Positions 1 to 32,356 of a stretch of 32,356 bases of DNA are shown piece after piece. Below the pieces are notes generated by a model. That model did no database searches. It worked only from the letters and a program-made list of their open reading frames with translations, and had not been told where the DNA came from. The stretch's first letter is position 1. Each line of letters starts with the position of its first letter. The translations under genes were made by a program, and so were the position numbers. The DNA is from a virus: the IMG/VR virus record IMGVR_UViG_3300009376_000058, positions 1 to 32,356 of that record. One strand, 5' to 3'.

Positions 1-2133
1 TACCCAATGGAACCAATGGATGATGGAACCTTTCCCGGTTTAGAAGCTTTAAACGATGAAGCTTTATTAGGTAATGAGGATTCAACCTATGATGCAAATG
101 GGTACCTTCAGGACTGGAGAGTTCCATTGATGGATGGTTATACTGGTGATGGTGAGTTTGACTATACTGGTGTCCCTCTTAATCCTGATAATCAAATATT
201 GGGTGAAGAGAGTGCAGCATTTGATGAAAATATTCAACACCCAATGGAACCAATGGATGATGGTCCATTTGATTATCCATCTACATTAGATACTAGTTAC
301 CCATATGTTCCAAGTGATGACTATACTAATGAATGGGATGAATTGACTGAGGATGAACAATTAGCTGTTCTAGAAGTTGAAAAGGCTCAGGAATGGAGAG
401 ATAATAATCCAGAACTTGCTGAAGAGTATGATGCGGAAATTCTAGCTAGTCAAAAACTAGCTGATGAAAAAGCTGATGAGGAATGGGTTGCAGCAAATCC
501 AGATCTTGCAGCATTAGAAGAAGAAATTAGTATGGAAAGAAACATGGCTACAAGGCATCCAGAAGAAGACTTATTCGCTGGAGATAATCTCCAACTTGAC
601 AAAGATTCTCTTATATATGATGAAATGGTAACTGAAATTGCAGATACTAAAGATGCTTTCATGCAACTTAATAAGGTAGACCCTAAAATTACAGAAGAGG
701 TTGGAAATATAGCAGATGAATTAAACGAAGATGGTGACCAAGAGAAGGCTGAGTTTAAATTATCAGGAATCTTTGATTGGCTGAAGGACATCTTTGGAGT
801 CGATGATAAGTCTCTTCTTAGAGCTTTTGTCAAATATGTTGGTGGAAGACTATTTGGTCTCTCCTCTGGTAAAGCAGCGGCTTTCGCTTGGAAAGGTATT
901 GAACAAGATATGGCTACTGAGGCTGCCAAGGGTGCAGATGCTAGAGAGTATGCAGATAATATGGCTGAGTATGATAGGATGTATGATGATGCATTAGAAA
1001 GAGGAGATGAAGAAGAAGCTAGAAGAATACTTCAGAAGATGAACTCATTGTCTGGTGTTGAAAAATCTGATGCTGAGAAGTTTGATGATAATATAAGTTA
1101 TCTGAATAAGAAGTACGATGAAGCTGAGGAAGCTAAAGATACAGTTAAAATGGCTCAGATTGCAAAACAACTTAAGAAAATGGAAGCAGCTGGCATTAGT
1201 GGTACTAAAGCCGATACTTGGATGGGGTCTGCTGGGATGTATGATAAAAACGGTACATATGTTGTTAAACAAGCTATGCAAGTTGATGGTGAAGGTATAA
1301 AAATATATGATGAATCAGACAATACATTTAAATTACCATCTGAACTTGGTTATAGGGATGCAATTAGAACCCCAAGTAGTGATAAAGGTACTGAGAGATA
1401 TGCAACAGACCAAAGGGTAATAACAGACCCTGCAGAATTTGGAAGATACTCTACTGAGATACCAAACGCTATTAGTGTCTCACCTAAAGGTGTTCCAAAA
1501 TTTGAGGAAGGCAGTGGTGATCTCAATAAGGCAGCCAGTTTCTCTCATACAGCTGTTAAGTCGTTTATGCAAATGGAAGACATTTTATCCCACAGTGATG
1601 CAGTTAGACAAGAGATATTTAGTTTACAAGCAGAGTTTAGAAAATCTATTGCAGACATGCCTTCCGATAGTGCTATGAAGGGTCTTTTAGGTAAATTTGC
1701 TAAGAGAGGTATGAGTCCTGCTGCTAAACTTTGGTTTAATGAGATGAATACTCTTGTTACTTCTAAGTTAAGAAGAGAAACAGGAGCTGCTTACAATCAA
1801 GATGAATTAATTACTACAATGAATTTCTTCCCTAATGCTACTGATTACCCTGCAAACTTTGATGAGTTAGATAGAACAGGTAAGATAAACGCTCTTAATT
1901 TTGTTAATCTAAGAATGCAGCAAGCTGGTAATTGGATCCTTACTAATGCTCAAGGTTTACAAGCTTACGATTATCTAGAAGGTTTAAAAGGTAACTTGTT
2001 TAGACCTGATGATGACTGGTTAAAATTAAACAAAGAAATGTTAGAGTTCTTAGACGCTCAATACAATCCACAGATAAGTGCTTCAACTGTTGAATTAATA
2101 CCAATTGAAGTTTCTCAAACACCAAAAACATAA
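1..2133 (+). CDS. Large acidic virion protein, 5' end cut by window
   Basis: The frame is open through base 1 (codons for Tyr-Pro precede the first visible Met), so the gene starts outside the window. The visible part is about 710 residues. The first 200 residues are very acidic and repeat the motif PMEPMDDG at the left edge and again near base 240, with a related LMDGYTGDG between. Around bases 760-900 is a less charged, Gly/Ala-rich stretch with WLKDIFGVDD; bases 950-1200 are Lys/Glu-rich and probably helical or coiled-coil. I recognise no family. Size, position before another large Gly/Ala-rich protein and the 11-base gap to it fit an internal or ejected virion protein, like the T7 gp14-gp15-gp16 order. 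The functional call is inference from position. Confidence 0.6.
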   Translation, partial: YPMEPMDDGTFPGLEALNDEALLGNEDSTYDANGYLQDWRVPLMDGYTGDGEFDYTGVPLNPDNQILGEESAAFDENIQHPMEPMDDGPFDYPSTLDTSYPYVPSDDYTNEWDELTEDEQLAVLEVEKAQEWRDNNPELAEEYDAEILASQKLADEKADEEWVAANPDLAALEEEISMERNMATRHPEEDLFAGDNLQLDKDSLIYDEMVTEIADTKDAFMQLNKVDPKITEEVGNIADELNEDGDQEKAEFKLSGIFDWLKDIFGVDDKSLLRAFVKYVGGRLFGLSSGKAAAFAWKGIEQDMATEAAKGADAREYADNMAEYDRMYDDALERGDEEEARRILQKMNSLSGVEKSDAEKFDDNISYLNKKYDEAEEAKDTVKMAQIAKQLKKMEAAGISGTKADTWMGSAGMYDKNGTYVVKQAMQVDGEGIKIYDESDNTFKLPSELGYRDAIRTPSSDKGTERYATDQRVITDPAEFGRYSTEIPNAISVSPKGVPKFEEGSGDLNKAASFSHTAVKSFMQMEDILSHSDAVRQEIFSLQAEFRKSIADMPSDSAMKGLLGKFAKRGMSPAAKLWFNEMNTLVTSKLRRETGAAYNQDELITTMNFFPNATDYPANFDELDRTGKINALNFVNLRMQQAGNWILTNAQGLQAYDYLEGLKGNLFRPDDDWLKLNKEMLEFLDAQYNPQISASTVELIPIEVSQTPKT

Positions 2134-2144
2134 TAGGAGATTCA

Positions 2145-4706
2145 ATGGAATATACAAGAAGTCAACTAGAAGCTGCACTTGTTACAGCAAGAAAAGATCC
2201 TATTAAATATGCTGAAAACATAAAAGAGCTAGAAAGACTAATCGCCAATGGTGTGTTTAAACCAGAGGTCAATGGGTCTACATTGTCTACAGGGTCTATA
2301 GGGGACTCAGAGTCAGGTAGCCTTATCTTTGATGAACTTAATAAAGACGAATCTTACAACCAAGCTTTACGGAAATTTTACAGTGGTAAAATGGGAACTA
2401 TAGATACAATAAGTGGTGCTAAAGGTTTTCGTGATGCCTTAACCTTGTCAGACCATCAAAATATTGATAGAGATTCTCAAGGTAACATTACAATGTCTAA
2501 TGAGGAATTAAAAGAGAAAAGTTTTGAGTTGTTTAATAGTGCATTTCTCAATGAAGTAAGCTTGGCTAGATTTGCAAATGAAATAAACTTAATGTCTCAA
2601 GAGGAACGAGATAATCTAGCGATACTCTATGATGTCTGGGAGAGGACTAAGATTACTGGAGAAGGTTCTAGACCATTATGGGAGCAAGTAAAGGATGCTG
2701 GTAATATATTAACTGCTCCAAGTACTTACGTTGGTGGGGCGTTTATAAGGGCTGGATTAGCTCCTGCTACTAGATTAGCTTTTAGTGCTGCCATGAAAAA
2801 GATGTTAAAAGTTGGTGCAAAAGGTTTAAATACGGCTGAAACAGCAGTTATTAAAGAGGGGGCTAAGGCAATGTCCCATAGGATGGGAGTACTTGGTGCT
2901 GGATATGCAGGTGGGTTTGACGTAGGACACCAGACTGGTGTTGAAATGCAAATAGACCCAGAGCAAGATTTTAGTTATGGAAGGGCAGCAGCTATGACAG
3001 GAGCAGGATATGTAGCTGGTCGATTCTTACCTAAGGCTTTAAGAGGATTAGGTAAAGTTGTAAGAGCCCCTGCAACTTTAGTAAATAAACCAGCTTGGGG
3101 GATAGGGTCTACTGTAACTCACCCCTTAGCTTCAACTGGATCAGGTTTTGTAAAAACTTTTGGAGGAGGACCAGCAGCTAGAGTTCATGTTGCAACAGAG
3201 GGTAAAGAATATCTTGGTTCACAGGCAGATGAGATCTGGAATAAGATGGATGTAGATGCCCATGGTGATCATCTTAGAAATAAAGTAGTAGAAGCATCTA
3301 CAAAGGCTTTTAGTAACTTTAAAGAAGCTTTCAGAAGTCTTGGTGACCTTGATATAAGATTCCCAGCTACTGGAGTAGATAAACCGGGACTGGTCCCAAA
3401 ATATCCAGATCCGTTTGCTAATAAAACTTTCACTAAAACTTTAGATGAATCAGAGAACTCCATTTATCGTTTAATTGACCACATTACTGGAAAAGAAGCA
3501 GGTGTTCCCGGTTGGGGCGGCTTAAATGAAATTCGGTTTCTATTAAAAAGAGGGGATATAACACCTACAGAGGCTTTAAGGAAAATAAGATCTAAAGTCG
3601 GTTCTATGGTAAAGAATGATAAATATAAAGATGGGCAATTTAAAGATACTTTTAAAAGATTATGGTTCGAAGCTAGAGATGTAATGTCTGATGCTGCTAG
3701 AAGAACCCCTGTAAGAGACGCTTCAGGTAATATAACTGGTAATAAAAAACAAGCATTTGATGTAATAGATAGTGCATATGGGGACTTTATTGAAGTAAAT
3801 AATCATAAACATATACAGACTTTAATGAGCAAAGATGGCTCTGACGCATTAAATTTAATAAAACAAATTGGATCTCAGGCTAAAAACAACTTTGGAAAAT
3901 TAAGAGAGCATGAAAAAAGAATAGGAGAAATGGCTCGATTTTCTGGTACTAGGGTTAATGATGTTATAGATGACACCGGTAGAGTTATAAAACCCGGAGA
4001 GGTAATGCCAAACCAAGATTTAATATTAGCAGCTGAAGATGCTATGAGGTCAGCGACTGGGCATCAAATGTTTCAGAATCCTACTGGTTCAGGTTTAAAA
4101 TCATATTTAAATACTAAACAAGGTAGAAAAGCCCTTAAAAGAATGTTTCCAGAACAGGAACATAATATTGATAGGTTTTCAAAAATTTTAAAAAATGCAG
4201 CGGATAAAACTTCTATGGGTATGTATGCTATGAGAGTTTTAACGGGTGCTTTTATCGGTTTCGGTTCTGCAGGTACGGGTATTGCCGGAGGTAGTCTTGC
4301 TGGTCTTAGTATTGTAATTATTGATAAACTTCTAAAATCACCTTGGTACGGTAAACAGGCGGCAAAGGTATTTTCAAGAGATAAAACAAAGAGTGCTCTT
4401 GAATCGTTTAGACTAGTAAAGATGCTTCAAAAAAGAGGATATACTAGTGAACAGGCAAATATGGTATTGGAGACTATGCTTGGAGCTACAGTGTGGTCTT
4501 ATTTCCTAGCAGATGAAGATAGAAGGAGAAGTGTATTTGGTGCACCTTCTAAGGTAGCTGATTCTTTTGTTGGAGATATTATTTTAAGAAACAGACTTTC
4601 TAAAAGAGCTCTTGCTGGTATTCAAGATTTTGGAAGAATTGCAAAAGAGGATGTATTCCAACCAGTATTCGACACAGTAACAGATCAGCTAATTTCTGAA
4701 CAATAG
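2145..4706 (+). CDS. Putative internal (ejected) virion protein, 853 aa
   Basis: The start follows TAGGAG five bases before the ATG. The protein has two Ala/Gly-rich weakly hydrophobic zones: about residues 185-310 (many small residues, amphipathic) and about 695-730 (a Gly-rich hydrophobic run that could cross a membrane), with a basic, charged middle. This pattern, its size and its place as the middle of three large genes match ejected proteins of podoviruses such as T7 gp15, but I see no motif that proves homology. Seen: composition and order. Inferred: role in the ejection core or trans-envelope channel. It is followed after eight bases by the RNA polymerase-like gene. Confidence 0.55.
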   Translation: MEYTRSQLEAALVTARKDPIKYAENIKELERLIANGVFKPEVNGSTLSTGSIGDSESGSLIFDELNKDESYNQALRKFYSGKMGTIDTISGAKGFRDALTLSDHQNIDRDSQGNITMSNEELKEKSFELFNSAFLNEVSLARFANEINLMSQEERDNLAILYDVWERTKITGEGSRPLWEQVKDAGNILTAPSTYVGGAFIRAGLAPATRLAFSAAMKKMLKVGAKGLNTAETAVIKEGAKAMSHRMGVLGAGYAGGFDVGHQTGVEMQIDPEQDFSYGRAAAMTGAGYVAGRFLPKALRGLGKVVRAPATLVNKPAWGIGSTVTHPLASTGSGFVKTFGGGPAARVHVATEGKEYLGSQADEIWNKMDVDAHGDHLRNKVVEASTKAFSNFKEAFRSLGDLDIRFPATGVDKPGLVPKYPDPFANKTFTKTLDESENSIYRLIDHITGKEAGVPGWGGLNEIRFLLKRGDITPTEALRKIRSKVGSMVKNDKYKDGQFKDTFKRLWFEARDVMSDAARRTPVRDASGNITGNKKQAFDVIDSAYGDFIEVNNHKHIQTLMSKDGSDALNLIKQIGSQAKNNFGKLREHEKRIGEMARFSGTRVNDVIDDTGRVIKPGEVMPNQDLILAAEDAMRSATGHQMFQNPTGSGLKSYLNTKQGRKALKRMFPEQEHNIDRFSKILKNAADKTSMGMYAMRVLTGAFIGFGSAGTGIAGGSLAGLSIVIIDKLLKSPWYGKQAAKVFSRDKTKSALESFRLVKMLQKRGYTSEQANMVLETMLGATVWSYFLADEDRRRSVFGAPSKVADSFVGDIILRNRLSKRALAGIQDFGRIAKEDVFQPVFDTVTDQLISEQ

Positions 4707-4714
4707 GAGTAAAT

Positions 4715-7700
4715 ATGTCAGTTGCAGGATTTACAAACGCTTTAGCTAGAAGTATAACTAGAAGACTCTCAAGGGCTATTGCTAATAAAGATATGGTTGA
4801 AGTCAAACAACTGGTAAAGATTCTTTCAGACTCGAAAAAGTTACAAGATGATGTTATAAAAATAAATGAAAAATATCAGGGTTCTCAACTAGACATAGAT
4901 AAAGAGATAGATATCAAGTACCCAGACGTAGATGGGACTTATAGTGGACGACAGGTTGTAGAAGCATTAAAGAAGATGGGCACCGATACAGAAGGGAGCA
5001 CTCCCGGTAAGAACGCTGAAACTGGGGGTTTTGAACCACATACTTTAAAAGAAATTGGTGACCATAATATTTTTACTCCAGAAATAATATCTATATCTAA
5101 ACTTGCTAGGAACGACCCTTTCAGTGATAGCTGGCATAATCAACCTCTTAGACCATTACCTGATGGAGCCCCTGAGGCAACTGTACCGCCCATTGTGGAC
5201 AGTAATGGTGTACTTAGGGATGGTCACAATAGAGTAAATCAAGCTGCGTTGGATTTCGCTCAAGGTAGGGGGGATGGTACAGTATCCATATTGCGTGGAA
5301 GTTCAGTGTTCAAAGAAAATGCCAATGAGGTTGTTCTAGATAGAGTTGGTTCTTTTGTGACAAATCTAAAGAGGAAAGTTGCTTTGGATTTTGGTGGAAC
5401 AATGGATGAAGCTACTGGTATAGTTACTAAAATAGCAAAACTTAAAACAGAATATAAAGGAACTGAACATACAGAAGAATTGTCTTCTTTTGCAGCAGCT
5501 TTACATAAAGGGACTAATAAGAGTAACCCTGACATTCTAAATGATGAACTTTATGTTGGGTTTGCGATGGATGTTCTAAGGGCTGCTAGAGACAATAAGG
5601 GAGGTGCCCCCGGTAAGAAATTAAAAGAATTAGACCCTGAAGGTAGAGAGAGAGTAGTCTCTGCTAAAATTAATAATGAATTAGCTAAAGATGTAGGTCT
5701 AGCGGCAGATGCTAGAATGACAAGTGCAGGGGGTACACCTTTGAAGCCTAATGAGATAAGACATTTAGGTGCGATGCTTTTAGAATTTGGAAGAGGAAAC
5801 TTTGGAGAAAACATTGCTATTGGTAAAGAAGCTATTAAACCTACAGGTCCTGTCAGCAGACCCAGTCTTCTTAAAGAATATAAAGGTCATGTAGAGACAA
5901 AGCCGGGTCAATATAAAGATAAAAAAATTACCACTACTTCTGATTTCTTTGACCATTGGGTTAAGAGGACAGGACATAATGGACGAGAGTGGTTAAATCT
6001 ATATCCAAACAGAAGGTCATTGAAAGCACCCAGTCCAAAATATCATGGTCCTTGGGTAACAGATGCTGAAGGTAATATTATAAAAGCCCCAACAGGTGTA
6101 GAAATTACAGGATACCTAGCAGGAGGTAAGGGAAATACCAGCCTGACAAAATTTGGTGTAGAGGCTATAAATATACTTGGTAAACAAAAAATAGGGGTAG
6201 ATTTAAATAAGTTTGAATATTGGAGACATTTAGGTGCTGGTGGTAAATTAAAGGATACTGGATTGGATAAAACATCACTAGAGATTGCACTACAAAAAGC
6301 ACAATTATCTGCTGAAGACCAAGTATATCTAACAAGATATTGGGATGACCTTAGGCTTCTTAAAAAGGAATTTATGGATGAGGAGGATGCACTTAGACTT
6401 ACAGATGGTAAAGGTAAGCCCAAACTTACTCCATTGGAAAGACAGAATTTTAAAGGTTTAAGACCATCGTTGAACAAAAAATGGTGGCACAAGGATCCAA
6501 AAACAGGGGAAATATCTGGTTCGAAGGTAGATCTTCAAAACTCTGTAGGTCCTTATGTTTCTGATGATAAAGTATTTCTAGACCTTATACAGAATGTACA
6601 TTTTGCTGCAGGTGAGATTAGACCTTTGCAGACTGTTCAAAGGGCTAGGTTTAACAGGATTCGTGAAGAAGTGAATGAAAGACTTAAGTTAGATCCTAAT
6701 GGTGAAGTCTATGTACCATATATGCTTGACTATAGAACTAGAGTCTACCCTATCGATAAGAGTGGTGCAAACCACCTAACCGGGGGTACTGCTAGGTTTA
6801 TGTGGGCATTTCCAAAATCACAAGCAAAACCCATTGTTTATAATGATGAAGCTTTTCATGTTCTTGTAGATGACTTGTTGAGATTTGAGACTAAGCCAAT
6901 TACACAAACCTTAGTTCGTTCTGGGGAGGAACTTGGGATGGCTCAAACAGCAAAGGCGAAAGAAGCTTTGAGTGCTAGTAAAGAATTAAGAGAGACTATA
7001 AGATATGGTCTTGATAAACTCCATAGTAATGATTTACAAAGATGGAAGTATTGGAAAATTACCGAGAAGGAATATCTAAGAAGAGGTAATGAGCTTTTAG
7101 ACTTTACTGAGAAATCACTAGATAAAGCTCTTACTATCGCCAAACGTCAAGAACTATGGGACTCCTATAATCCTAAATGGCTAAAGGGGATAAAAGACCA
7201 AGGTGAATATTTATCAGCCTTGACAGAGATAGCTCGTGTGGAAAGAGCTTTTCGTAGAGCTAAAGAGAATCCAATTAGTACTTCTGATTCTCAAAATAAA
7301 CTTCTTATGGATATGGTACACATACCATCTAAAGCTCGTGAGATAAATCGCTTACAAGCAGCTGGTGCTCATATGAGTACTTCTCCAATAGAGTTGGATG
7401 CTTCTGCCTCAGGCTCTCAACACTTGTATGCCCAATATAGAAATATAGAAGGTCTAAAGCAAGTAAATGTATTTTCAAAAAGATCCCCTAGAGAACTTCT
7501 AACTACTAAAGAAATAAAAATGTTGGAAGAGGGTGTAGATAATAATTCTATTGCTAAAGACTTATATACAAATACCGCTGGTGGTTATACAACAAAACTT
7601 AGAGCTAGGTTGGATGACCTCTCTGTCACAGATCCAAAATTGGCAAAAATATATAATGACCTTACTAATCAATATGTACAAGTTGGGAGAAGTACTTCTA

Positions 7701-8743
7701 AACCTATAGTTATGAAAGTACCATATGGGGCTGGAGAGAAGAGGCTTGAGATAACTTTACAGAGTCTCCTTGGGGACAAAGAAAGATTGCAGATATTAAG
7801 AGATTACAATGGTAAAGTCGATAATGTGACTACACTCCCTGATGAGTTTATGGACTTCCACTGGAGATCTATGTGGTCTGCTCTAAAGGAATCTTTAGAT
7901 ACACAATTTGAGTTTAGGAGATTTAGTTCTGTTCTTATGGGGGTGTACAATGAAGCACCATTATCAGGTACTCCTAGAAAAGCACTTTTAGTAAAATCAC
8001 CTTCTGGTCATCAAACTGATTTTACAATATATGCAACTCAGTTTGAAGTATCACGGGAAAGAGTAAAGGTAAATTTACTTCCAGATTTTCCTCAAATTAA
8101 ACAATCAAAAGGTTTAACTAAAAGTGGGAAAAAGAAAGAAGCTTATGCGAAAAAAGACATTACATTAACAAGTGAAATTCCAATTGCACCTACTGATCCA
8201 TTGGCTATAAGAATGGCATCAACACCAGCGGCTATTAGAAAAGGGATTAGTTCTGCGGATTTAGGAGTGTGGGCAGTAGAGAATAAAATGGTACACGAAG
8301 AACCATTTGTAACTGACTCTATGAAGAGTATGGCTTCAGCTTTATCCCCTAATGCAGTTCATATGGTAGATGCTGGGTATTTAACTAAATTAGTTATTGC
8401 ACTAAACGAGGCAGGGGTACCTGTATATGTAGTTCATGATGCTTTCTTTATCATGGCTCCAGATGTTAGAAAGACTAAAGAGATAGCTGGTAAAGTATTC
8501 ATTGAAATGCATAATGGTTATAATCTAAGGAAAGAGTTGATAGAAGGAGTAGCAAAAGCAACTGGTATACCATTCAATGAAGTCGTAGAAAGAGTAAACG
8601 AGAGAATGCTTAATCCAAATAAAAGGGAGATAGCTAGAGGTATTAAATCTTATAAAGATGGTGCATTGGGTACAAAAACTGAGGGTGATTTAAAACCCCC
8701 AGCAGGTTATAGTAGTTTAAATGAAGTATTAATGGGAGGCTAA
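4715..8743 (+). CDS. Large single-subunit RNA polymerase in the virion block (candidate virion RNAP), 1342 aa
   Basis: The C-terminal 700 or so residues carry the single-subunit (T7/N4 type) RNA polymerase motifs in order. DYRTRVYP at residues 672-679 corresponds to T7 DFRGRVYA. Motif A is LDASASGSQH with catalytic Asp895. Motif B is KPIVMKVPYG with Lys996, Tyr1004 and Gly1005, equivalent to T7 K631, Y639 and G640. Motif C is VVHDAF with His1241 and Asp1242. All catalytic residues are present, so the enzyme is probably active. It is far longer than T7 RNAP (883 aa): about 400 N-terminal residues are extra and include a ParB-like stretch ending DGHNR (169-173). It sits third in a row of large virion-type genes, where T7 has gp16 (1318 aa). 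That suggests a polymerase packaged and ejected with the DNA, as N4 gp50 is; this role is inference. Start: TAGGAG six bases before ATG. Confidence 0.88.
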   Translation: MSVAGFTNALARSITRRLSRAIANKDMVEVKQLVKILSDSKKLQDDVIKINEKYQGSQLDIDKEIDIKYPDVDGTYSGRQVVEALKKMGTDTEGSTPGKNAETGGFEPHTLKEIGDHNIFTPEIISISKLARNDPFSDSWHNQPLRPLPDGAPEATVPPIVDSNGVLRDGHNRVNQAALDFAQGRGDGTVSILRGSSVFKENANEVVLDRVGSFVTNLKRKVALDFGGTMDEATGIVTKIAKLKTEYKGTEHTEELSSFAAALHKGTNKSNPDILNDELYVGFAMDVLRAARDNKGGAPGKKLKELDPEGRERVVSAKINNELAKDVGLAADARMTSAGGTPLKPNEIRHLGAMLLEFGRGNFGENIAIGKEAIKPTGPVSRPSLLKEYKGHVETKPGQYKDKKITTTSDFFDHWVKRTGHNGREWLNLYPNRRSLKAPSPKYHGPWVTDAEGNIIKAPTGVEITGYLAGGKGNTSLTKFGVEAINILGKQKIGVDLNKFEYWRHLGAGGKLKDTGLDKTSLEIALQKAQLSAEDQVYLTRYWDDLRLLKKEFMDEEDALRLTDGKGKPKLTPLERQNFKGLRPSLNKKWWHKDPKTGEISGSKVDLQNSVGPYVSDDKVFLDLIQNVHFAAGEIRPLQTVQRARFNRIREEVNERLKLDPNGEVYVPYMLDYRTRVYPIDKSGANHLTGGTARFMWAFPKSQAKPIVYNDEAFHVLVDDLLRFETKPITQTLVRSGEELGMAQTAKAKEALSASKELRETIRYGLDKLHSNDLQRWKYWKITEKEYLRRGNELLDFTEKSLDKALTIAKRQELWDSYNPKWLKGIKDQGEYLSALTEIARVERAFRRAKENPISTSDSQNKLLMDMVHIPSKAREINRLQAAGAHMSTSPIELDASASGSQHLYAQYRNIEGLKQVNVFSKRSPRELLTTKEIKMLEEGVDNNSIAKDLYTNTAGGYTTKLRARLDDLSVTDPKLAKIYNDLTNQYVQVGRSTSKPIVMKVPYGAGEKRLEITLQSLLGDKERLQILRDYNGKVDNVTTLPDEFMDFHWRSMWSALKESLDTQFEFRRFSSVLMGVYNEAPLSGTPRKALLVKSPSGHQTDFTIYATQFEVSRERVKVNLLPDFPQIKQSKGLTKSGKKKEAYAKKDITLTSEIPIAPTDPLAIRMASTPAAIRKGISSADLGVWAVENKMVHEEPFVTDSMKSMASALSPNAVHMVDAGYLTKLVIALNEAGVPVYVVHDAFFIMAPDVRKTKEIAGKVFIEMHNGYNLRKELIEGVAKATGIPFNEVVERVNERMLNPNKREIARGIKSYKDGALGTKTEGDLKPPAGYSSLNEVLMGG

Positions 8744-8744
8744 A

Positions 8745-8978
8745 ATGCCATATAAAGATCATAATATACTGTCCCATATGGGCATAACAGACTTGGAGCT
8801 TTTAAGAGAGCATGGTGGTCCAGAGAAATATGCAGGGACAAATAAGTGTAATACTTGGATGATTAACAACGAGTATAAAGAAAATCTTAAGGCAGGGACA
8901 CCTGTTAAAGAATGTAATGCTTTAAGAAATCAGGCACAACAGACTTTAGCTGATATCCGAAGAGCTAGAGGCTACTAA
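8745..8978 (+). CDS. Small protein of unknown function, 77 aa
   Basis: It starts one base after the polymerase stop, with GGGAGG just before, so it is probably translationally coupled. The protein is hydrophilic, with two Cys residues (NKCN, KECN) and a basic C-terminus, and has no membrane segment or signal peptide. It is the last gene of the plus-strand block; a two-way terminator follows. No family recognised. Its place directly behind the polymerase suggests a late or virion-related gene, no more than that. Confidence 0.65.
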   Translation: MPYKDHNILSHMGITDLELLREHGGPEKYAGTNKCNTWMINNEYKENLKAGTPVKECNALRNQAQQTLADIRRARGY

Positions 8979-8984
8979 GCTCAA

Positions 8985-9041
8985 GCGAAAAAAAAGGTCA
9001 CAAAAAGACATTAATTGTCCAATTTGTGACCTTAATTTTTC
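8985..9041. terminator. Two-way intrinsic terminator between convergent gene blocks
   Basis: A perfect 11-bp inverted repeat (8994-9004 with 9023-9033, arm AAGGTCACAAA) encloses a smaller one (GACA...TGTC, 9007-9018). It is flanked by eight A on the left and an AT-rich run with five T on the right, so transcripts from either side meet a GC-containing hairpin then a U-rich tract. It lies exactly between the ends of the plus-strand and minus-strand genes. Confidence 0.88.
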
Positions 9042-9891: not shown

Positions 9892-10020
9892 CTATTTTCT
9901 CCAATCACTTTTCCAAAGTGGTCTTGATTTCTTTTTATTTAATCTCCTGTAGAGTTCGGCAGTCCTATCTTTCTTAATAAGACCACCGGGCTCTTTTTTT
10001 TCAGGAGCCTTACGCTCCAC
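9892..10020 (-). CDS. Small basic protein, 42 aa, GTG start
   Basis: This short frame is open from a GTG overlapping the 3' end of the preceding membrane-protein gene to a TAG eight bases before the next start. It is rich in Lys and Arg (motifs LIKKDRTAELYRRLNKKK and PLWKSDWRK) with no hydrophobic segment. It exactly fills the gap between two well-supported genes, which is the main support. An adjacent in-frame GTG is an alternative start. A nucleic-acid-binding role would fit the charge but is not shown. Confidence 0.5.
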   Translation of the reverse strand: MERKAPEKKEPGGLIKKDRTAELYRRLNKKKSRPLWKSDWRK

Positions 10021-10123
10021 CACCAATCCATCCAAATAGCAAAGCTAGAACGACTATGCCCAAAAAGATAGTTAATGATTTATTTTCTAACACTTTTTTT
10101 GCTAGGTCTGTTAATTGGTCCAT
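10010..10123 (-). CDS. Single-span membrane mini-protein, 37 aa
   Basis: ATG preceded by AGGGG with seven-base spacing and only ten bases after the holin-like gene. About 18 N-terminal polar residues (MDQLTDLAKKVLENKS) lead into one hydrophobic segment of about 17 residues ending GWIGGGA. Close linkage to the holin-like gene suggests a lysis or membrane role, such as a second holin or antiholin; no homology claimed. Confidence 0.6.
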   Translation of the reverse strand: MDQLTDLAKKVLENKSLTIFLGIVVLALLFGWIGGGA

Positions 10124-10133
10124 GTATATACCC

Positions 10134-10376
10134 CTACTTAGATAGTTCACTCGTTATATCTTTATCTAGTAGTTTCCAGATAATACCTGCCGCAATTAAA
10201 CCTGCCAACCCAGCGTTGCCGAGAGTCCAAACTATATTCAGTATAGATGCAATAACATCCCCAGTAAGGAATGCTACCTTACTACCGAAAATAATTTGAA
10301 GCACAATAGACAAACTGATTAGTTTGATTCCAACATCAATCGCACCATCAGCTGCGTTTTTGATTTTCTCTAACAT
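10134..10376 (-). CDS. Holin-like small membrane protein, 80 aa
   Basis: AGGAG precedes the ATG. The protein has a short charged N-terminus (MLEKIKNAADG), two hydrophobic segments at about residues 17-35 and 40-68 joined by a short turn, and a charged C-terminus (LLDKDITSELSK). Length, two spans and charged ends fit a class II holin, which permeabilises the inner membrane at lysis. The neighbours (a membrane mini-protein and, beyond the HNH gene, a lipoprotein) agree. No endolysin is seen in the window, so the lysis role is inferred. Confidence 0.6.
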   Translation of the reverse strand: MLEKIKNAADGAIDVGIKLISLSIVLQIIFGSKVAFLTGDVIASILNIVWTLGNAGLAGLIAAGIIWKLLDKDITSELSK

Positions 10377-10400
10377 TTATAACTCCTATATTGTTAAAAA

Positions 10401-10808
10401 TTAAGTAATATGCCTCTTTGCATAGTACATGAGACCTGATATTTTCTCAGGACTCTCCATGAGAAGTCCAAGTGCGGTATTACAATGATGACACAATAGA
10501 CCCCTGACCTTACCAGTTTCATGACAATGGTCAACATACAACTTATGATCATCGTCTAAACCATACTGGCAATTCTCATTGGCACAAGTACCCCCTTGTT
10601 CCTCACTAATTTTTTCTTTTTCCTCAACAGAAAGGTTGTACCTCCACTTATCCATATAGCCGGGATTAGATTCTTTCCAATTCTTGTTTAGTTCACTTCT
10701 ACAAGATTTGCAAATCCTATTAGGATTTTCTACCTGACCCTTGCTAAACTGGGAGGAGTCCTTTAACTCCTCACACTTCTTACACTCTATATTATTAGAA
10801 TTCTCCAA
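10401..10808 (-). CDS. Endonuclease VII-type HNH nuclease, 135 aa
   Basis: The C-terminal half has the recombination endonuclease VII/HNH signature: CANENC, then LYVDHCHETGKVRGLLCHHCN, with HNH-type His and Cys pairs for zinc, then a helix and YYAKRH. The N-terminal half adds CKKC and ICKSC, a second Cys pair set. The start is TTG, overlapping the last codons of the lipoprotein gene. Related proteins in phages are either junction resolvases or free-standing homing endonucleases; since an endonuclease I is already encoded, a homing nuclease inserted among lysis genes is the likelier reading. Confidence 0.85.
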   Translation of the reverse strand: MENSNNIECKKCEELKDSSQFSKGQVENPNRICKSCRSELNKNWKESNPGYMDKWRYNLSVEEKEKISEEQGGTCANENCQYGLDDDHKLYVDHCHETGKVRGLLCHHCNTALGLLMESPEKISGLMYYAKRHIT

Positions 10809-10956
10809 CTTCCCACCCCACGCACATTTCCGAATCCTCTGGTGAACAAGATAATTGTTGATTTCTCATCTCCTCTATCTTAGTTTCAAACTGAGTACAC
10901 CCTGTTAGTAGGGTTACTATGAGTTGTAATACAATTATTACTGCTACTGTTTTCAT
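10795..10956 (-). CDS. Small lipoprotein, possible o-spanin (Rz1-like), 53 aa
   Basis: The ATG overlaps the reductase stop as ATGA, so translation is probably coupled. The first 20 residues form a lipoprotein signal: Lys2, a hydrophobic core (VAVIIVLQLIVTL) and the lipobox LLTGC with Cys20 as the lipidated residue. The mature part is about 33 residues and has two further Cys. Size and lipobox fit a small outer-membrane lipoprotein such as an Rz1 o-spanin next to a holin-like gene, but no i-spanin partner was found. It was found by reading the 145-base gap between neighbours. Confidence 0.7.
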   Translation of the reverse strand: MKTVAVIIVLQLIVTLLTGCTQFETKIEEMRNQQLSCSPEDSEMCVGWEVGEF

Positions 10957-16925: not shown

Positions 16926-17004
16926 TTCTCCTCCGTAGAAAAATAAATGAGAGGACTACGCTTTCACGGTTAGGTAGTTTTAGCCCGAACCTCTCTTAAA
17001 TCAC
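16926..17004 (-). other. 79-base intergenic segment with nested hairpin
   Basis: Most of this gap between SSB and primase-helicase can fold: GAGAGG near 16990 pairs with CCTCTC near 16950, and inside it CTAC pairs with GTAG. There is no T-run, so it is not a standard terminator. The primase-helicase ribosome site GGAGGAG lies at its downstream end. It could be a translational control hairpin, a processing site or a promoter region; function unknown. Confidence 0.4.
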
Positions 17005-19001: not shown

Positions 19002-21230
19002 TTAAGAGATAATATACTTGGATTCCGAAATTTCATCCATTTGTAAATCACCATAGTCAATTTCATCTTCAAGACCAAAAGCTTCTATTGTAGATCCAAG
19101 CTGGTCTTTTTCAAATATCTCTTGAAAAACCTCCTTAAATACATTAAGAAGTAGTTCTAAGTTATCTGCACTTACTGAAAACTGGTCATGAATCATCATA
19201 AAGTTGATTGCACCGAGTTCTGCTAGTCTACAGATAACTAAAGTTAATAGAGATGCATCTTGAGAATGTACAAAATTAGCACTTATGCCCCTCTCATGGT
19301 CAGTCTTTCTAGCCTCATCAAGAAAAACCTGATAACTCAATTTCACAGGTCTACTCCCAAACATACAATTTACTCTTTTAATAGAAGTTTTTGCATAATT
19401 CTGGAAAGCAGTAAATCCTGTGGCTGTCTTCCAAGTAATCATTGGCTTGTTACCACTATTCTCTAGATATACACAGACACCTCTTTTCAAAAGGTCTTTA
19501 GCTTGTGTTTGTCTAGGGAATGCCAACCTAACACCATCAAAAATGGCAGTACCTATGTAGGCAGAATCATCATATGTCATCTCTGACAATATATCATAAC
19601 CGTGGTCACGCCTATCTTCGAAGGTTTGGTCTTGTATACAACCTCTACCAGCATCGTAGTAGTAAGACATTGTTGGTCTTTTGCAAAGTTTCCTCCAAGC
19701 CTTATCACCTAAATCTTCAAAACTCTTATAAGAGAAACCACCATCAAGAACAGATCTCGCTATAACCATGTATGCGTCTCCAATTTCTTTACTTGGATGG
19801 TTTACCACATTTGTCTCTTCAGCACCTGTCCTATCCCTAGTCATAGCGGATAAGATTTGTAGCCCAGAATTGGTTGCATCTAGACCTATAGGTAAATGAC
19901 AAACATAGTCATCCCTACCCATCTCTTCCAACTTCTTCCACTCTAAGATAGCAGATATTAATTGAAACTTGGTCTTCTTATCGCCACTGAATTGTCTTAA
20001 CCACTTAGAATTCAGAGGGTCTTCAGATGCCTCTAGTATCTCTGGCATCCAAACATAAGTCCAGAGGACTCTATCATCCATAGATATCTTGTCCTCACCT
20101 GCACAATTTGCTGTATGTATTGCCAAAGCCCTTTCGACTTCTTCAGTCCAATACACTCCGTGATTAAACATCAATAATCCTTTCGCTAAATCTGAGCCTG
20201 TAGGTTCAAAGTAATTAACAATTGGATAAAATCTACCTCTGCTGTCTAATTGAAAATCGTAATGAAAAGCCTTATCAATCATTAGAGTAGCCATATCCAT
20301 AACCCTGTCAAATTCATATCTCTTGGAAGATGCTCTTACTATATCCAAAGCATCTGATGATTTATCCTTCATCCATCCAGAGGCTTTTCTCTTCTTGTAA
20401 GTATTACTTCTACCGTCTATCTGGGCAACTGTTAGACCTTTCTTTAAGAGTTGGTGACTGACATTAGCCAGATACCACTTCTTTGCTTGTCTCCCTACAA
20501 ATTCTGATGTTCTTTTGAAACTCAGAAGACTCTTGAGGGACTTGCTTACTTCCTCACTATCTACAGCTTTAGGTATATAGGGGTGGTCGTCCTTGTCAAA
20601 CTCCTTGACAATTTCCAACAACTCCTCATTCACTGTAAATGATGTTGACCCATAAGAGTTCAAAGCATCGTATACTTTTGGCATCCTCTTATACAGGTAT
20701 TTTTTACTTAATTCTGGTGGCATCTTCTTGACTATTGGCACACCATTCTTGTATGGATGTGTCCAACCCTTGTACTCCTCTAGGGGTAAGTCGATTGGCG
20801 ACACCTGTTTTATTTCTTGAAAATAACGAAAAAGTAAATTTCGCTCATCTTTAAAATCTAATCTATTCAATTTCATAACACCTTGAGACTCTGTCACCAC
20901 TTGTGTGTAACCAAGAGACCCTAAGGAACCTAAGGCTTCTACTCCTGCTGAGATCATAGTAGCCTCTGCTTTCTGTGAAGTCCCCGATTTTAAATTGAAT
21001 TGAGTATGCACATTCATTCTAGAAGCCAATGCTGATGCTGTCGATGTCAACGCTGTACCTTTCGACAACGCACTAATTGTAAAATCTAGAATATCTTCTG
21101 CTATTGTTCTTACACTGTCTGCACCGAGTAAAACTTTCTTAAATGCAGACTGCCGTCCCTTGCTTATCGTTTGGGACATATGATTTAATTGTGACGAGAT
21201 TTGTAATAATAGTAGTTCCCTCTTATCCAT
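19002..21230 (-). CDS. T7-type single-subunit RNA polymerase, 742 aa
   Basis: Transcribes phage genes from phage promoters. Core motifs in order: QLDSRGRFYP with Asp329 (T7 DFRGR); GLLMFNHG and HTANCAGEDK; motif A GLDATNSGLQ with Asp451 (T7 D537); motif B KRPTMSYYYD with Lys517 and Tyr525 (T7 K631, Y639); NFVHSQDASLL; motif C MIHDQF with His681 and Asp682 (T7 D812). Two oddities: the residue after the motif B Tyr is Asp526, where T7 has Gly640, and the N-terminus is about 140 residues shorter than T7 RNAP (883 aa), so the promoter-binding and specificity elements should differ. It follows the ClpX gene after 13 bases and precedes the replication genes, as T7 gene 1 does. It is clearly different from the second polymerase at 4715-8743. 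Confidence 0.96.
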   Translation of the reverse strand: MDKRELLLLQISSQLNHMSQTISKGRQSAFKKVLLGADSVRTIAEDILDFTISALSKGTALTSTASALASRMNVHTQFNLKSGTSQKAEATMISAGVEALGSLGSLGYTQVVTESQGVMKLNRLDFKDERNLLFRYFQEIKQVSPIDLPLEEYKGWTHPYKNGVPIVKKMPPELSKKYLYKRMPKVYDALNSYGSTSFTVNEELLEIVKEFDKDDHPYIPKAVDSEEVSKSLKSLLSFKRTSEFVGRQAKKWYLANVSHQLLKKGLTVAQIDGRSNTYKKRKASGWMKDKSSDALDIVRASSKRYEFDRVMDMATLMIDKAFHYDFQLDSRGRFYPIVNYFEPTGSDLAKGLLMFNHGVYWTEEVERALAIHTANCAGEDKISMDDRVLWTYVWMPEILEASEDPLNSKWLRQFSGDKKTKFQLISAILEWKKLEEMGRDDYVCHLPIGLDATNSGLQILSAMTRDRTGAEETNVVNHPSKEIGDAYMVIARSVLDGGFSYKSFEDLGDKAWRKLCKRPTMSYYYDAGRGCIQDQTFEDRRDHGYDILSEMTYDDSAYIGTAIFDGVRLAFPRQTQAKDLLKRGVCVYLENSGNKPMITWKTATGFTAFQNYAKTSIKRVNCMFGSRPVKLSYQVFLDEARKTDHERGISANFVHSQDASLLTLVICRLAELGAINFMMIHDQFSVSADNLELLLNVFKEVFQEIFEKDQLGSTIEAFGLEDEIDYGDLQMDEISESKYIIS

Positions 21231-25176: not shown

Positions 25177-25205
25177 AAAAAAAAGTGGGGGGAATCGAAC
25201 CCCCC
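25177..25205 (-). terminator. Intrinsic terminator with T-arm-like hairpin
   Basis: Six G-C pairs (25200-25205 with 25187-25192) around loop TTCGATT, then AC and eight T on the minus strand at 25177-25184. It closes the gene-free stretch just before the 24848-25162 gene. Confidence 0.8.
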
Positions 25206-27106: not shown

Positions 27107-27155
27107 ATGTCATAAAATAAATAAGATATAACACACCTGTCTGATGTGCTATATT
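27107..27155 (-). terminator. Intergenic hairpin after the 27156-27422 gene
   Basis: On the minus strand ATAGCACA (27152-27145) pairs with TGTGTTAT (27135-27128) through one G-U pair, around a nine-base loop, then TCTTATTTATTTT. It is a weak AT-rich terminator or processing hairpin. The G-U pair is a C-A mismatch on the plus strand, so the minus strand is the folded one. Confidence 0.5.
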
Positions 27156-27618: not shown

Positions 27619-27659
27619 AATAATAAGTAAAAACCCATCCGTAGATGGGCTTTGATTTA
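27619..27659 (-). repeat. Early-region intergenic hairpin element, copy 1
   Basis: Read on the minus strand: AATCAAAGCCCATC, loop TACG, GATGGGTTTTTACTTATTA. A six-pair stem with a cUACGg (UNCG-type) tetraloop and five T follows the stop of the 27660-27854 gene directly. Identical hairpin to the copies at 29884 and 30853. It looks like an intrinsic terminator within a repeated cassette border. Confidence 0.85.
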
Positions 27660-27854
27660 CTATCTAATTTTTCTAAACGCAGTACAGCCATCAATCTTAT
27701 TGGCGTATACACACGCTGTTTCCAAATCTACATCATCGAGCATGACCAACCCAGTATTATCTGCTACATAATACCGTTCATCCTCAGAATCTACGATTTG
27801 CATGGCATGGTCTATTGCCCTATGCCAACTTTTTAAAAACTCATTCTCAGTCAC
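27660..27854 (-). CDS. Small hypothetical protein, 64 aa, GTG start
   Basis: GTG start after GGAGGTAGAT. Helical N-terminus (ENEFLKSWHRAIDHAMQIV), acidic middle (DSEDERYYVADN), then VDLETACVYANKI. The stop abuts hairpin element copy 1. No family recognised. Confidence 0.7.
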   Translation of the reverse strand: MTENEFLKSWHRAIDHAMQIVDSEDERYYVADNTGLVMLDDVDLETACVYANKIDGCTAFRKIR

Positions 27855-28742: not shown

Positions 28743-28760
28743 AACTTATTCCTCCTATAA

Positions 28761-28801
28761 ATAATAAGTAAAAACCCACTTCAGCAGTGGGCTTTGATTT
28801 A
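28761..28801 (-). repeat. Early-region intergenic hairpin element, copy 2
   Basis: Minus strand: AAATCAAAGCCCACT, loop GCTGA, AGTGGGTTTTTACTTATTAT. Flanks match the other copies; the stem is a different sequence that keeps pairing, so structure rather than sequence is kept. Directly follows the 28802-29047 stop. Confidence 0.83.
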
Positions 28802-29047
28802 TTATTTCAAATTGTTGCCGTGTTCTACCTCAGCAACTGGATTTCTAGAATTAATCATGATGTCTCTGACAATCTCTCTGTCTAGACTGTCACCATCAAA
28901 AGGTAACTCACAATTTAACTCTCTGATTTTTGTTGCTAGTCTGATTTCAGCCATAGTAACACCACCAGTAGACGGGAAGAATTCTTCACCGTAAAGACTG
29001 TCGTCACCTTGACCATAGAAATCATATACATATTCTTCAAAAGTCAT
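28802..29047 (-). CDS. Small acidic hypothetical protein, 81 aa
   Basis: GAGGTGAAATT precedes the ATG. Acidic N-terminus (MTFEEYVYDFYGQGDDSLYG), then a helical TMAEIRLATKIRELN and a DGDSLDREIVRDIM segment. Lies just after the structured stretch 29048-29539. No family recognised. Confidence 0.72.
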   Translation of the reverse strand: MTFEEYVYDFYGQGDDSLYGEEFFPSTGGVTMAEIRLATKIRELNCELPFDGDSLDREIVRDIMINSRNPVAEVEHGNNLK

Positions 29048-29539
29048 AATTTCACCTCATAATTAATATGTAAAAGCCTACCCCTAAAAGTAGACTTTTA
29101 TATATTGACTATTTCATAACTAGTCTCCAAAAGTTAAAGAGGAGGAAGTCTACCTTGATTGTCTTAGAGAAGAATCTCTAAATCAAAGTAGACAGTATTT
29201 TTAAGGTCGTCCTCCAACGACCAGTATAGATTTTTAAAACCATTTATTCAACTTGAAATTTGTGTCTTCCAAATTGACAATTTATAAATGTAATTTGCAT
29301 TCACATTATATTATTGTAGGTTATTGGCATTAATCATGGATACGAACCGTCTTTTACCGAGGACTCTTAGCATCACAATCAGTCGACACATTGTGATACC
29401 GATTTTGCTAGTCTGTGGTAAATGCATAGTTGATTCAGCATGTTGCATTTATTTCTATACCTCCCTTACACAAAGGGTATTCGAGTAACTGCATTTTCGT
29501 GGGTCGCACTCGGCAACCCACTTGTAAAATATCAGCCCC
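29048..29539 (-). ncRNA. Candidate structured noncoding RNA, about 490 bases
   Basis: No gene is visible. On the minus strand helices are: 29521-29513 with 29507-29499 (nine pairs, one G-U) around loop CGAGT, which can also pair with ACTCG at 29486-29482 to make a pseudoknot; 29450-29444 with 29426-29420; 29397-29390 with 29379-29372; 29222-29217 with 29210-29205; and 29193-29181 with 29160-29148 (13 pairs with one U-G) enclosing TAGAGA/TCTCTA. Both wobble pairs become C-A mismatches on the plus strand. CAGACTAGC (29415-29407) with GCTAAGAGTC downstream around the 29390s hairpin recalls the P7-P8 core of group I introns, but P4-P6 was not found. Confidence 0.55.
29061..29106 (-). repeat. Divergent copy of the intergenic hairpin element, copy 3
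   Basis: Minus strand AAAAGTCTAC, loop TTTTAGGG, GTAGGCTTTTACATATTAATT. Same place (before a gene's ribosome site) and same overall form as the other copies, but stem and flanks have drifted. Confidence 0.6.
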
Positions 29540-29834: not shown

Positions 29835-29856
29835 AAAACTGGTTGTATTACATAGT
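29835..29856 (-). promoter_or_regulatory. 22-base repeated promoter-like element, copy A
   Basis: Minus strand ACTATGTAATACAACCAG then TTTT. An exact copy is at 32335-32356, and both lie 21-22 bases before a start codon. TAATACAAC resembles the first half of the T7 promoter (TAATACGAC). After copy A comes the dyad CAGTTT-T-AAACTG. A phage promoter is the best guess; which polymerase would use it is unknown. Confidence 0.55.
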
Positions 29857-29883: not shown

Positions 29884-29928
29884 AATAACAAGTAAAAACC
29901 CATCCGTAGATGGGCTTTGATTTATTAT
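29884..29928 (-). repeat. Early-region intergenic hairpin element, copy 4
   Basis: Same CCCATC-TACG-GATGGG hairpin and TTTTTACTTGTTATT tail as copies 1 and 6, just after the 35-residue membrane-protein gene. The following segment to 29812 holds the C tract and the 22-base promoter-like repeat, so here termination is followed by a new promoter candidate. Confidence 0.85.
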
Positions 29929-30270: not shown

Positions 30271-30314
30271 AATAACAAGTAAAAACCCACTTTTCAGTGG
30301 GCTTTGATTTATTA
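30271..30314 (-). repeat. Early-region intergenic hairpin element, copy 5
   Basis: Minus strand CCCACT, loop GAAA (a GNRA tetraloop), AGTGGG, then TTTTTACTTGTTATTATGCGAGGAG running into the next ribosome site. Stem differs from copies 1, 4 and 6 but pairs perfectly. Confidence 0.86.
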
Positions 30315-30617
30315 TTAACACAAAATATGTTGACCACTTTCAGTGGTGTAATTAAATGGAAATTCAAGTTCTGTTGCTAATTGTATTCCCTCATCGATTG
30401 CGTCTTCCTCCGATGAACAAGCCCATTCGAGAATGTCACCATTTGGAAAGAATCCACAAGGAATAAAACTTTCATGTTCCTTGCTGTATTCTATCTGCTG
30501 TACTGACCAACCTTTAACAGGCTGATGCACAGTTAGAAAAGTTTCCCTTTCACTAAAATCGATTCCCGCACTTTCACGAAAATCTCTTATCATTTTAATT
30601 TCAGAATTTTCCATCAT
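30315..30617 (-). CDS. Small hypothetical protein, 100 aa
   Basis: Starts in an ATGA overlap (two adjacent ATGs). The N-terminal helix (EIKMIRDFRESAGIDFSERE) is followed by WSVQQIEYS and a GFFPNGDILEWACSSEEDAIDEG segment resembling a small beta-alpha fold. No family recognised. Confidence 0.72.
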   Translation of the reverse strand: MMENSEIKMIRDFRESAGIDFSERETFLTVHQPVKGWSVQQIEYSKEHESFIPCGFFPNGDILEWACSSEEDAIDEGIQLATELEFPFNYTTESGQHILC

Positions 30618-30852: not shown

Positions 30853-30902
30853 TAATAACAAGTAAAAACCCATCCGTAGATGGGCTTTGATTTATTATCA
30901 AT
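30853..30902 (-). repeat. Early-region intergenic hairpin element, copy 6
   Basis: Identical CCCATC-TACG-GATGGG hairpin with TTTTTACTTGTTATTAAGCGAGGA downstream. It starts right after the 30903-31247 stop codon. Confidence 0.87.
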
Positions 30903-31262: not shown

Positions 31263-31336
31263 TAATAACAAGTAAAAACCTGTTTTCGTCCCCGAATTTA
31301 ATCTAGGATTTATAGAAAACAGGCTTTGATTTATTA
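31263..31336 (-). repeat. Early-region hairpin element, copy 7, with long apical insert
   Basis: Flanks match the family (ATCAAAGCCTG... and ...CAGGTTTTTACTTGTTATTAAGCGAGGA). The nine-pair stem CCTGTTTTC/GAAAACAGG is capped by about 27 bases instead of 4-6, including a small AATC/GATT dyad. The insert may be a relic of a larger element or a second small fold. Confidence 0.83.
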
Positions 31337-31567
31337 TCAATCAAGCAAAATCATATAGGCTTGTGAATTCTTTTTCATAAACCAGTATCTTGCATCATCA
31401 AAATATGTATATATTTTGGTTATCTCGCAACCCTTAATATAATCATAAACGGCAACTTCTACTGGGTCTAATGTTACTTCAGCACCCGAAAATGGATTGC
31501 GAATAACTTCGCTTTCCTTTCCTATAGAAAGTTCTTTCATTATTTCTAGCCATTTTTTCTTTGACAT
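31337..31567 (-). CDS. Conserved-looking phage hypothetical protein, 76 aa
   Basis: GCGAGGGCTAAAAA before the ATG. The pattern NPFSGAEVTLDPVEVAVYDYIKG followed by DDARYWFMKKNSQAYMILLD is one I know from short hypothetical proteins of several tailed phages. Function unknown. Bounded by hairpin elements on both sides. Confidence 0.77.
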   Translation of the reverse strand: MSKKKWLEIMKELSIGKESEVIRNPFSGAEVTLDPVEVAVYDYIKGCEITKIYTYFDDARYWFMKKNSQAYMILLD

Positions 31568-31582: not shown

Positions 31583-31629
31583 TAATAACAAGTAAAAACC
31601 CACTCATTACAGTGGGCTTTGATTTATTA
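31583..31629 (-). repeat. Early-region intergenic hairpin element, copy 8
   Basis: Minus strand CCCACT, six-base loop GTAATG, AGTGGG, TTTTTACTTGTTATTATGCGAGGG. It follows the 31630-32313 stop and runs into the next ribosome site. Confidence 0.85.
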
Positions 31630-32313
31630 TTAAATAGTAGCAATTGCAATACGATTAAATGCGTTAATTTTGCCAACTGTACCATGTACAAGTGTAACAA
31701 TATTTTTTGCATTCGGATGATTATGTAAACCATCACACAAGCGACAATCTCGACATTGGATGTTATCAGTCGTATTCGGACAAATAATTTCACCCTTTAA
31801 AGGTGTATTATCTGAACTAACACGATAACAACGCCAACCATCAAGAGTCGCATTTTCGTACTCTTCGGCTGTATCAACTGAAGCCATTAAATACTGCTTA
31901 TAATCGCTGTATTTTTTATCGCTCCACTGGTGAGTATAACCCGTATAGCCTTTCGAATTTTCTGCAATAAATTGCATTAATTCAATAGGAATCAATACAG
32001 GCTCACCGTACGCCCCAAACCTAACATACTTATGTTTTAATTGATATTTAAGTACATCATAGTCTAAAGGCTGATATAAGCCGTTCTTATATGCTTTATA
32101 AACTGATAAAGGTGCTTGACCCTGATTTACATAACAGGTCTCACCCTTATGCTTACAATCAAAACATATAATTGAATTACTACCGTTTTTAACGGCTGTG
32201 ACTGGGTCAAATTCTTTATTAATTATCCAAACTTGACACATGTCCCCCGTTTTATTATTTAATGATTTAAAGGTGATAATAATCACGAATAAATCAGTCT
32301 CGAATAATATCAT
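31630..32313 (-). CDS. Cys-rich phage protein of a widespread uncharacterised family, 227 aa
   Basis: The start at MILFETDLF follows GGAGAGTATCAAA and lies 21 bases after the 22-base repeat. Recognisable blocks: NNKTGDMCQVWI, CFDCKHKGETCYVNQGQAPLSVYKAY, VRFGAYGEPVLIP, GYTGYTHQW, LMASVDTAEE, GWRCYRVS, and a C-terminal Cys cluster CRDCRLCDG. The two Cys clusters could bind zinc or an Fe-S cluster. I know this layout from many phage genomes as a protein of unknown function. It is the first gene of the visible minus block and may be one of the earliest expressed. Confidence 0.8.
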   Translation of the reverse strand: MILFETDLFVIIITFKSLNNKTGDMCQVWIINKEFDPVTAVKNGSNSIICFDCKHKGETCYVNQGQAPLSVYKAYKNGLYQPLDYDVLKYQLKHKYVRFGAYGEPVLIPIELMQFIAENSKGYTGYTHQWSDKKYSDYKQYLMASVDTAEEYENATLDGWRCYRVSSDNTPLKGEIICPNTTDNIQCRDCRLCDGLHNHPNAKNIVTLVHGTVGKINAFNRIAIATI

Positions 32314-32334: not shown

Positions 32335-32356
32335 AAAACTGGTTGTATTACATAGT
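32335..32356 (-). promoter_or_regulatory. 22-base repeated promoter-like element, copy B (at window edge)
   Basis: Exact copy of 29835-29856, cut by the window end so it may be longer. It lies 21 bases before the start of the 31630-32313 gene, the same spacing as copy A. Confidence 0.55.

Follow-up and report, generated by a model that had tools for sequence, protein, structure and literature searches.

The window, by which we mean the whole stretch of DNA analysed here, is a linear record of 32,356 bp in which plus-strand genes occupy positions 1-8978 and minus-strand genes lie from 9216 on; the two gene blocks are convergent. In order, the plus-strand genes encode proteins of 710 aa or more (this first gene is truncated by the start of the contig), 853, 1342 and 77 aa. 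On the minus strand are found two endonucleases, a ribonucleotide reductase, a family A DNA polymerase, a primase-helicase, a gp2.5-type single-strand binding protein, an exonuclease, a 742-aa RNA polymerase, an AAA ATPase and many small genes. The features on which the following account is built are (L042 being a related IMG/VR locus described below):

1..2133, plus strand: cysteine-free protein of 710 aa or more, incomplete at the contig start (878 aa in L042), proposed ejection protein (L042 homologue; no cysteine)
2145..4706, plus strand: cysteine-free protein of 853 aa, proposed ejection protein (58% identical to the syntenic L042 gene; no cysteine)
4715..8743, plus strand: single-subunit RNA polymerase of 1342 aa without cysteine, proposed ejected virion polymerase (Pfam/PHROG, hhalign, fold, cysteine count)
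8745..8978, plus strand: conserved protein of 77-82 aa after the polymerase (present in 11/11 loci examined)
8994..9033, no strand assigned: conserved two-way terminator between the late and early blocks, 11-bp stem with A and T runs (9/9 loci checked)
19002..21230, minus strand: ordinary cytoplasmic RNA polymerase of the T7/N4-RNAPII type, 742 aa, 7 Cys (PHROG 414 at 4.6e-113, hhalign, cysteine count)

Convergent gene blocks are likewise present in N4 and the Zobellviridae, and the nearest relative of the DNA polymerase of this phage is from the Zobellviridae. A preliminary description had called the virus a T7-like phage, an assignment that we take as tentative at most: a T7-type polymerase is present as in Autographiviridae, but the blocks are convergent, not mostly on one strand (the annotated genes of T7 all lie on one strand). 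Head and tail genes lie outside the fragment, so that the name 'late block' for the plus-strand genes rests on gene order and composition; beyond the contig of L042, no contig was found that extends this block upstream into head genes. The window contains no Rfam families, and sigma-70 promoter matches occur at chance level. Several small elements of the minus strand may be recorded here. Near the junction of the blocks (9909-10952) two tiny membrane-type proteins and a lipoprotein-like protein have the look of lysis genes, albeit on the early strand. The 79-nt gap before the primase-helicase (16926-17004) holds a folded-looking GAGAGG...CCTCTC followed by a T-rich stretch; it has no Rfam match and is possibly a cis-regulatory RNA. 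Finally, GGGGGGTTCGATTCCCCCC at 25189-25205 resembles a tRNA T-arm, although ARAGORN reports no tRNA.

The frame at 4715..8743 is open for 1342 aa from an ATG, and its product matches Pfam RNA_pol (5.7e-17) and PHROG 414 RNA polymerase (4.9e-22), values that rule out chance. The core motifs of the enzyme are located as follows:

6734..6748, plus strand: DxxGR-type motif, here DYRTR, residues 674-678 (family alignment, hhalign)
7397..7399, plus strand: catalytic Asp895 of motif A, in LDASASGSQ (alignment with T7)
7688..7726, plus strand: R992, K996 and Y1004 of motif B, in GRSTSKPIVMKVPYG (alignment with T7)
8435..8440, plus strand: H1241 and D1242 of motif C, in VVHDAFF (alignment with T7)

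In hhalign, D895, R992, K996, Y1004 and D1242 align on D537, R627, K631, Y639 and D812 of T7 RNA polymerase. The motif A Asp, the motif B Arg, Lys and Tyr and the motif C His-Asp are invariant in every family member that covers them, and the DxxGR block reads DSRTR, DTRTR or DYRGR in other members. When a profile of eight family members was compared with one of 11 T7-like polymerases, the two aligned over 401 columns with 99.4% probability (E 4e-21). Judged from its sequence, the 1342-aa protein thus belongs to the single-subunit RNA polymerases and retains every catalytic residue; the preliminary description, which had reported a complete enzyme of this type, was correct in the reading frame, the coordinates and the positions of Asp895, Lys996, Tyr1004 and Asp1242.

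Structure prediction agrees with this identification. An AF2 model of residues 330-1342 has a mean pLDDT of 50, with core blocks at 70-87, and the cupped-hand polymerase fold is matched by this predicted model. Its top 50 Foldseek matches in the PDB are all T7 or mitochondrial polymerases (best 1.3e-9). In VIA-align the model was superposed on T7 RNA polymerase (1cez) with Z 15.5 (rmsd 8.8, 426 aligned residues) and on N4 mini-vRNAP with a lower Z of 9.1 (rmsd 10.3, 405 aligned). For the N-terminal 460 residues no usable model was obtained (pLDDT 38.5); residues 156-180 may bear a likeness to ParB-like domains. The enzyme shares its fold, motifs A, B and C and the DxxGR block with T7 RNA polymerase and the mitochondrial polymerases, but differs from T7 RNA polymerase in about 450 extra residues, the lack of cysteine, its late-block position and its placement in a separate long-branch clade.

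The second polymerase of the phage, which had likewise been pointed out beforehand, is real and is encoded on the minus strand; against the T7-like profile it reaches E 1.7e-59 (hhalign). We also considered that the 1342-aa enzyme might be a recent copy of this 742-aa enzyme, and rejected the idea, as the two are similar only around motif C.

Relatives of the 1342-aa polymerase were found in IMG/VR: two contigs have an identical overlap (L001, L002), and ten loci (L042-L051) carry diverged relatives with 34-50% identity. The L042 contig has a full-length relative preceded by homologues of both upstream genes (878 and 828 aa), and its blocks converge as in the window. A scan of 50,697 phage records turned up no full-length relative, and isolated phages gave only weak partial polymerase matches; prokaryote genomes gave no relatives. 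In the polymerase tree, which supports the family clade only and not its deep placement, the family stands apart on a long branch as a clade supported at 100/100. The two polymerases of the phage evolve at different rates. When the window is compared with the contig of L018/L046, for example, identity is 87% for the ordinary polymerase and 50% for the 1342-aa polymerase. For the latter, dN/dS stays under 1 in all pairs whose dS is usable (close pairs about 0.3-0.6), while that of the ordinary polymerase is about 0.05 (window with L020). The ratio below 1 implies that the 1342-aa gene is mostly under purifying selection; it is kept by selection and changes faster than the ordinary one. This faster divergence is what would be expected if a dead polymerase had been retained solely as a structural ejection protein, but the catalytic residues of motifs A, B and C are kept in every member covering them and dN/dS stays below 1, which makes such a fate most improbable.

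The 1342-aa gene is the last large gene of its block and the third of three adjacent big genes. Neither upstream protein has database relatives in Pfam or PHROG or detectable homology to known ejection proteins, and the 853-aa protein has no match among the 50,697 phage records. The location of the polymerase in a 'virion-protein block', as it had been described, was the describer's own deduction, since these two proteins lack database relatives and head and tail genes are not visible; the cysteine-free content of the upstream proteins supports it. The GGAGG ribosome site of the downstream gene (8745..8978) is made by the last two codons of the polymerase. For this reason we discarded the invariant C-terminal Gly-Gly of the polymerase as a packaging or processing signal: its codons form the ribosome site of the next conserved gene. 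The hairpin at 8994-9033 shows a paired A-T/G-C change, and the same hairpin is formed in all nine loci checked.

Absence of cysteine, together with large size and helix content, has been used to argue for a virion polymerase in Stenotrophomonas phage StenR_269, and proteins of Zobellviridae are likewise without cysteine (PMC10747016). None of the 11 family sequences examined, 7,095 aa in all, contains a cysteine, and the two upstream proteins are cysteine-free in the window as well as in their L042 counterparts. The other listed genes of the window contain 1.8% Cys (77 of 4,267 aa), a rate that predicts about 24 cysteines in 1342 residues. Schitoviridae virion polymerase stretches are cysteine-free in 8/8 cases (13,033 aa), as are the whole of N4 gp50, T7 gp15 and gp16, N4 gp51 and the internal proteins of CRP-403 and ParMal1, whereas each of the 12 cytoplasmic phage polymerases tested has 8-14 Cys. 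In this sample the absence of cysteine separated known packaged from cytoplasmic polymerases without exception. More generally, 15 of 87 ORFs of at least 400 aa in nine reference phages lack cysteine, and these encode mostly internal or ejection-region proteins and one portal, with no known cytoplasmic enzyme among them. Cysteine absence is a correlate of ejection and not its mechanism; as evidence for packaging the counts are indirect, though strong. The trait suggests itself as a cheap test for ejected proteins.

These counts bear on the leading alternative, namely that the 1342-aa enzyme, like the 742-aa one, stays in the cytoplasm: its gene would simply be situated in the late operon, and the unpackaged product would transcribe late genes. 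Two single-subunit polymerases can indeed occur in one phage with no sign of packaging, as in Alteromonas phage H4/4, whose enzymes have 708 and 796 aa (L079 921-3047 and L076 1220-3610, both Cys-rich). However, those enzymes contain 14 and 10 Cys and all 12 cytoplasmic polymerases contain cysteine, as opposed to none in 11/11 family members; the 1342-aa gene, moreover, lies directly behind two large cysteine-free proteins, and its product is far above the 708-936 aa of these cytoplasmic enzymes. We regard a purely cytoplasmic role as unlikely.

The closest parallel is provided by N4, in which gp50 is an ejection protein analogous to T7 gp16 and is expelled last; the same recent structural study regards the large virion polymerase as confined to the N4 family (PMC12633501). 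Ejected polymerases of the single-subunit kind are therefore already known, and the merging of ejection and early transcription in one gene, which the preliminary description expected of a gp16-position polymerase, is not in itself new. As in N4, a single-subunit polymerase ends the late block and faces the early block, the order of three genes resembles that of gp50-gp51-gp52 with cysteine-free neighbours (the ejection role of which is here putative), a second polymerase lies in the early block, and cysteine is absent, there from the packaged polymerase. There are differences as well: N4 gp50 is about 3500 aa long and includes a large C-terminal domain, while in the 1342-aa protein polymerase similarity reaches residue 1281; no profile similarity is detectable (hhalign 1.6% against a profile of eight vRNAPs); and the window phage has T7-like core motifs in this polymerase and a DNA polymerase nearest to Zobellviridae. 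The enzyme had been called very different from the N4 polymerase, with which these values agree.

Could the protein nevertheless have come from the N4 (Schitoviridae) virion polymerases by shortening and divergence? The shared block layout, the lack of cysteine, the YGxG in motif B as in N4, the structural match to mini-vRNAP and one weak match to PHROG 2206 virion RNA polymerase (L047, E 0.005) would fit such an origin. Set against them are the profile probability of 1.6% for Schitoviridae vRNAP as opposed to 99% for T7-like polymerases, the T7 and mitochondrial enzymes as top fold matches, and the missing giant C-terminal domain, and we consider this descent very unlikely.

Other large phage proteins offer likeness of position rather than of sequence. 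T7 gp16 (1318 aa, 30595-34551) is similar in size, is the last in a run of large cysteine-free proteins and itself has no Cys; it differs in being annotated with an endolysin domain and not as a polymerase. Homology of the 1342-aa protein to gp16 was not detected (hhalign probability 3.5%; no lysozyme-type Pfam match). The earlier remark that the gene lies where T7 has gp16 is hence apt for position, the third of three large cysteine-free proteins, but does not extend to sequence. The putative vRNAP of StenR_269 and the large internal proteins of Zobellviridae are also large, cysteine-free and found at the corresponding place in a similar block layout, and the case for a polymerase in StenR_269 was made from size, helix content and the absence of Cys (PMC10747016). 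The Zobellviridae proteins of 1.208.B and CVT22 (1532 and 1573 aa; L036 12378-16976 and L037 12719-17440) are Cys-free. They were examined as hidden relatives and rejected, having no polymerase motif or profile match.

Taken as a whole, the 1342-aa protein probably represents a new clade of polymerases that are ejected and act early. It is read as an ejected protein because of its lack of cysteine, its position at the end of the block, the conserved three-gene order and the terminator as in the N4 cassette; packaging in the virion is accordingly probable from genomic evidence. Counting against it are the two neighbours, in which no homology to known ejection proteins is detectable, and the missing large C-terminal domain: encapsidation of N4 vRNAP reportedly requires such a domain (unpublished data, PMC4496689). 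Under the preferred reading, the polymerase would be made late, packaged with the two other large cysteine-free proteins and passed through a short tail as the third of the ejection proteins; it would fold in the host envelope or cytoplasm. The folded enzyme could then transcribe early genes before host or phage enzymes act, after which the ordinary polymerase (19002-21230) would serve middle or late genes. The novelty lies in a clade for which no profile relation to N4 vRNAP could be detected, an enzyme 2.6 times smaller and built on a T7-like core, and a Zobellviridae-nearest DNA polymerase. If the reading is true, a second clade of ejected polymerases would mean either that such enzymes had several origins or that they go back further than assumed; it would also provide a compact model for the passage of a polymerase through a phage tail and its refolding. 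The more specific scenario, in which packaging arose independently outside Schitoviridae when a small phage with a short tail took on a T7-like polymerase as third ejection protein, with a hairpin promoter for this enzyme in front of every early gene, seems to us rather doubtful.

Candidates for such promoters lie in the early region, where a 46-nt imperfect inverted repeat AATAATAAATCAAAGCC...GGTTTTTACTTGTTATT occurs in seven copies, only between 27.6 and 31.6 kb and on the early strand:

31584..31630, minus strand: early intergenic hairpin, copy 1 (repeat scan, stem pairing)
31264..31338, minus strand: early intergenic hairpin, copy 2, with a different stem and a long loop (stem pairing)
30854..30898, minus strand: early intergenic hairpin, copy 3 (repeat scan, stem pairing)
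30271..30315, minus strand: early intergenic hairpin, copy 4 (repeat scan, stem pairing)
29884..29928, minus strand: early intergenic hairpin, copy 5 (repeat scan, stem pairing)
28760..28806, minus strand: early intergenic hairpin, copy 6 (repeat scan, stem pairing)
27619..27663, minus strand: early intergenic hairpin, copy 7 (repeat scan, stem pairing)

The hairpins end 29-32 nt before a start codon. Their core pattern was found at 12 sites, where 0.22 are expected (those on the plus strand being the opposite arms of these repeats). The 10-bp stem is intact in 70/70 pair cells, with four of its pairs varying in both arms, a count taken from copies in one genome that may be recent duplicates. 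In other phages the hairpin was met only in a same-species contig and as chance matches.

A hairpin followed by a T run has the look of an intrinsic terminator. N4 itself has a hairpin plus T6 at 8023 with the same anatomy as the elements of the window, and this hairpin differs from the two promoter-type hairpins that our scan found in N4 (557 before gp2, 4546 before gp15). The early promoters of N4, which consist of a hairpin, then T's, then the start (PMC4496689), are similar in anatomy to the elements of the window. The role of plain terminators is made less likely by the distance of only about 30 nt from the T run to the start codon and by sigma-70 sites being at chance level. By a rough weighting set by judgement, the early hairpins may well be terminators, might, more tentatively, be promoters of the 1342-aa polymerase, and with lower probability are RNase III sites or something else.

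Two further observations concern the same region. An exact 22-nt repeat, AAAACTGGTTGTATTACATAGT, occurs at 29835-29856 inside the early region and at 32335-32356; the latter copy forms the last bases of the contig, and the assembly may therefore have broken at the repeat. Two hairpins with different stems (29071-29100 and 27126-27154, minus strand) stand at the same place before early genes and may be diverged copies of the seven-copy element.
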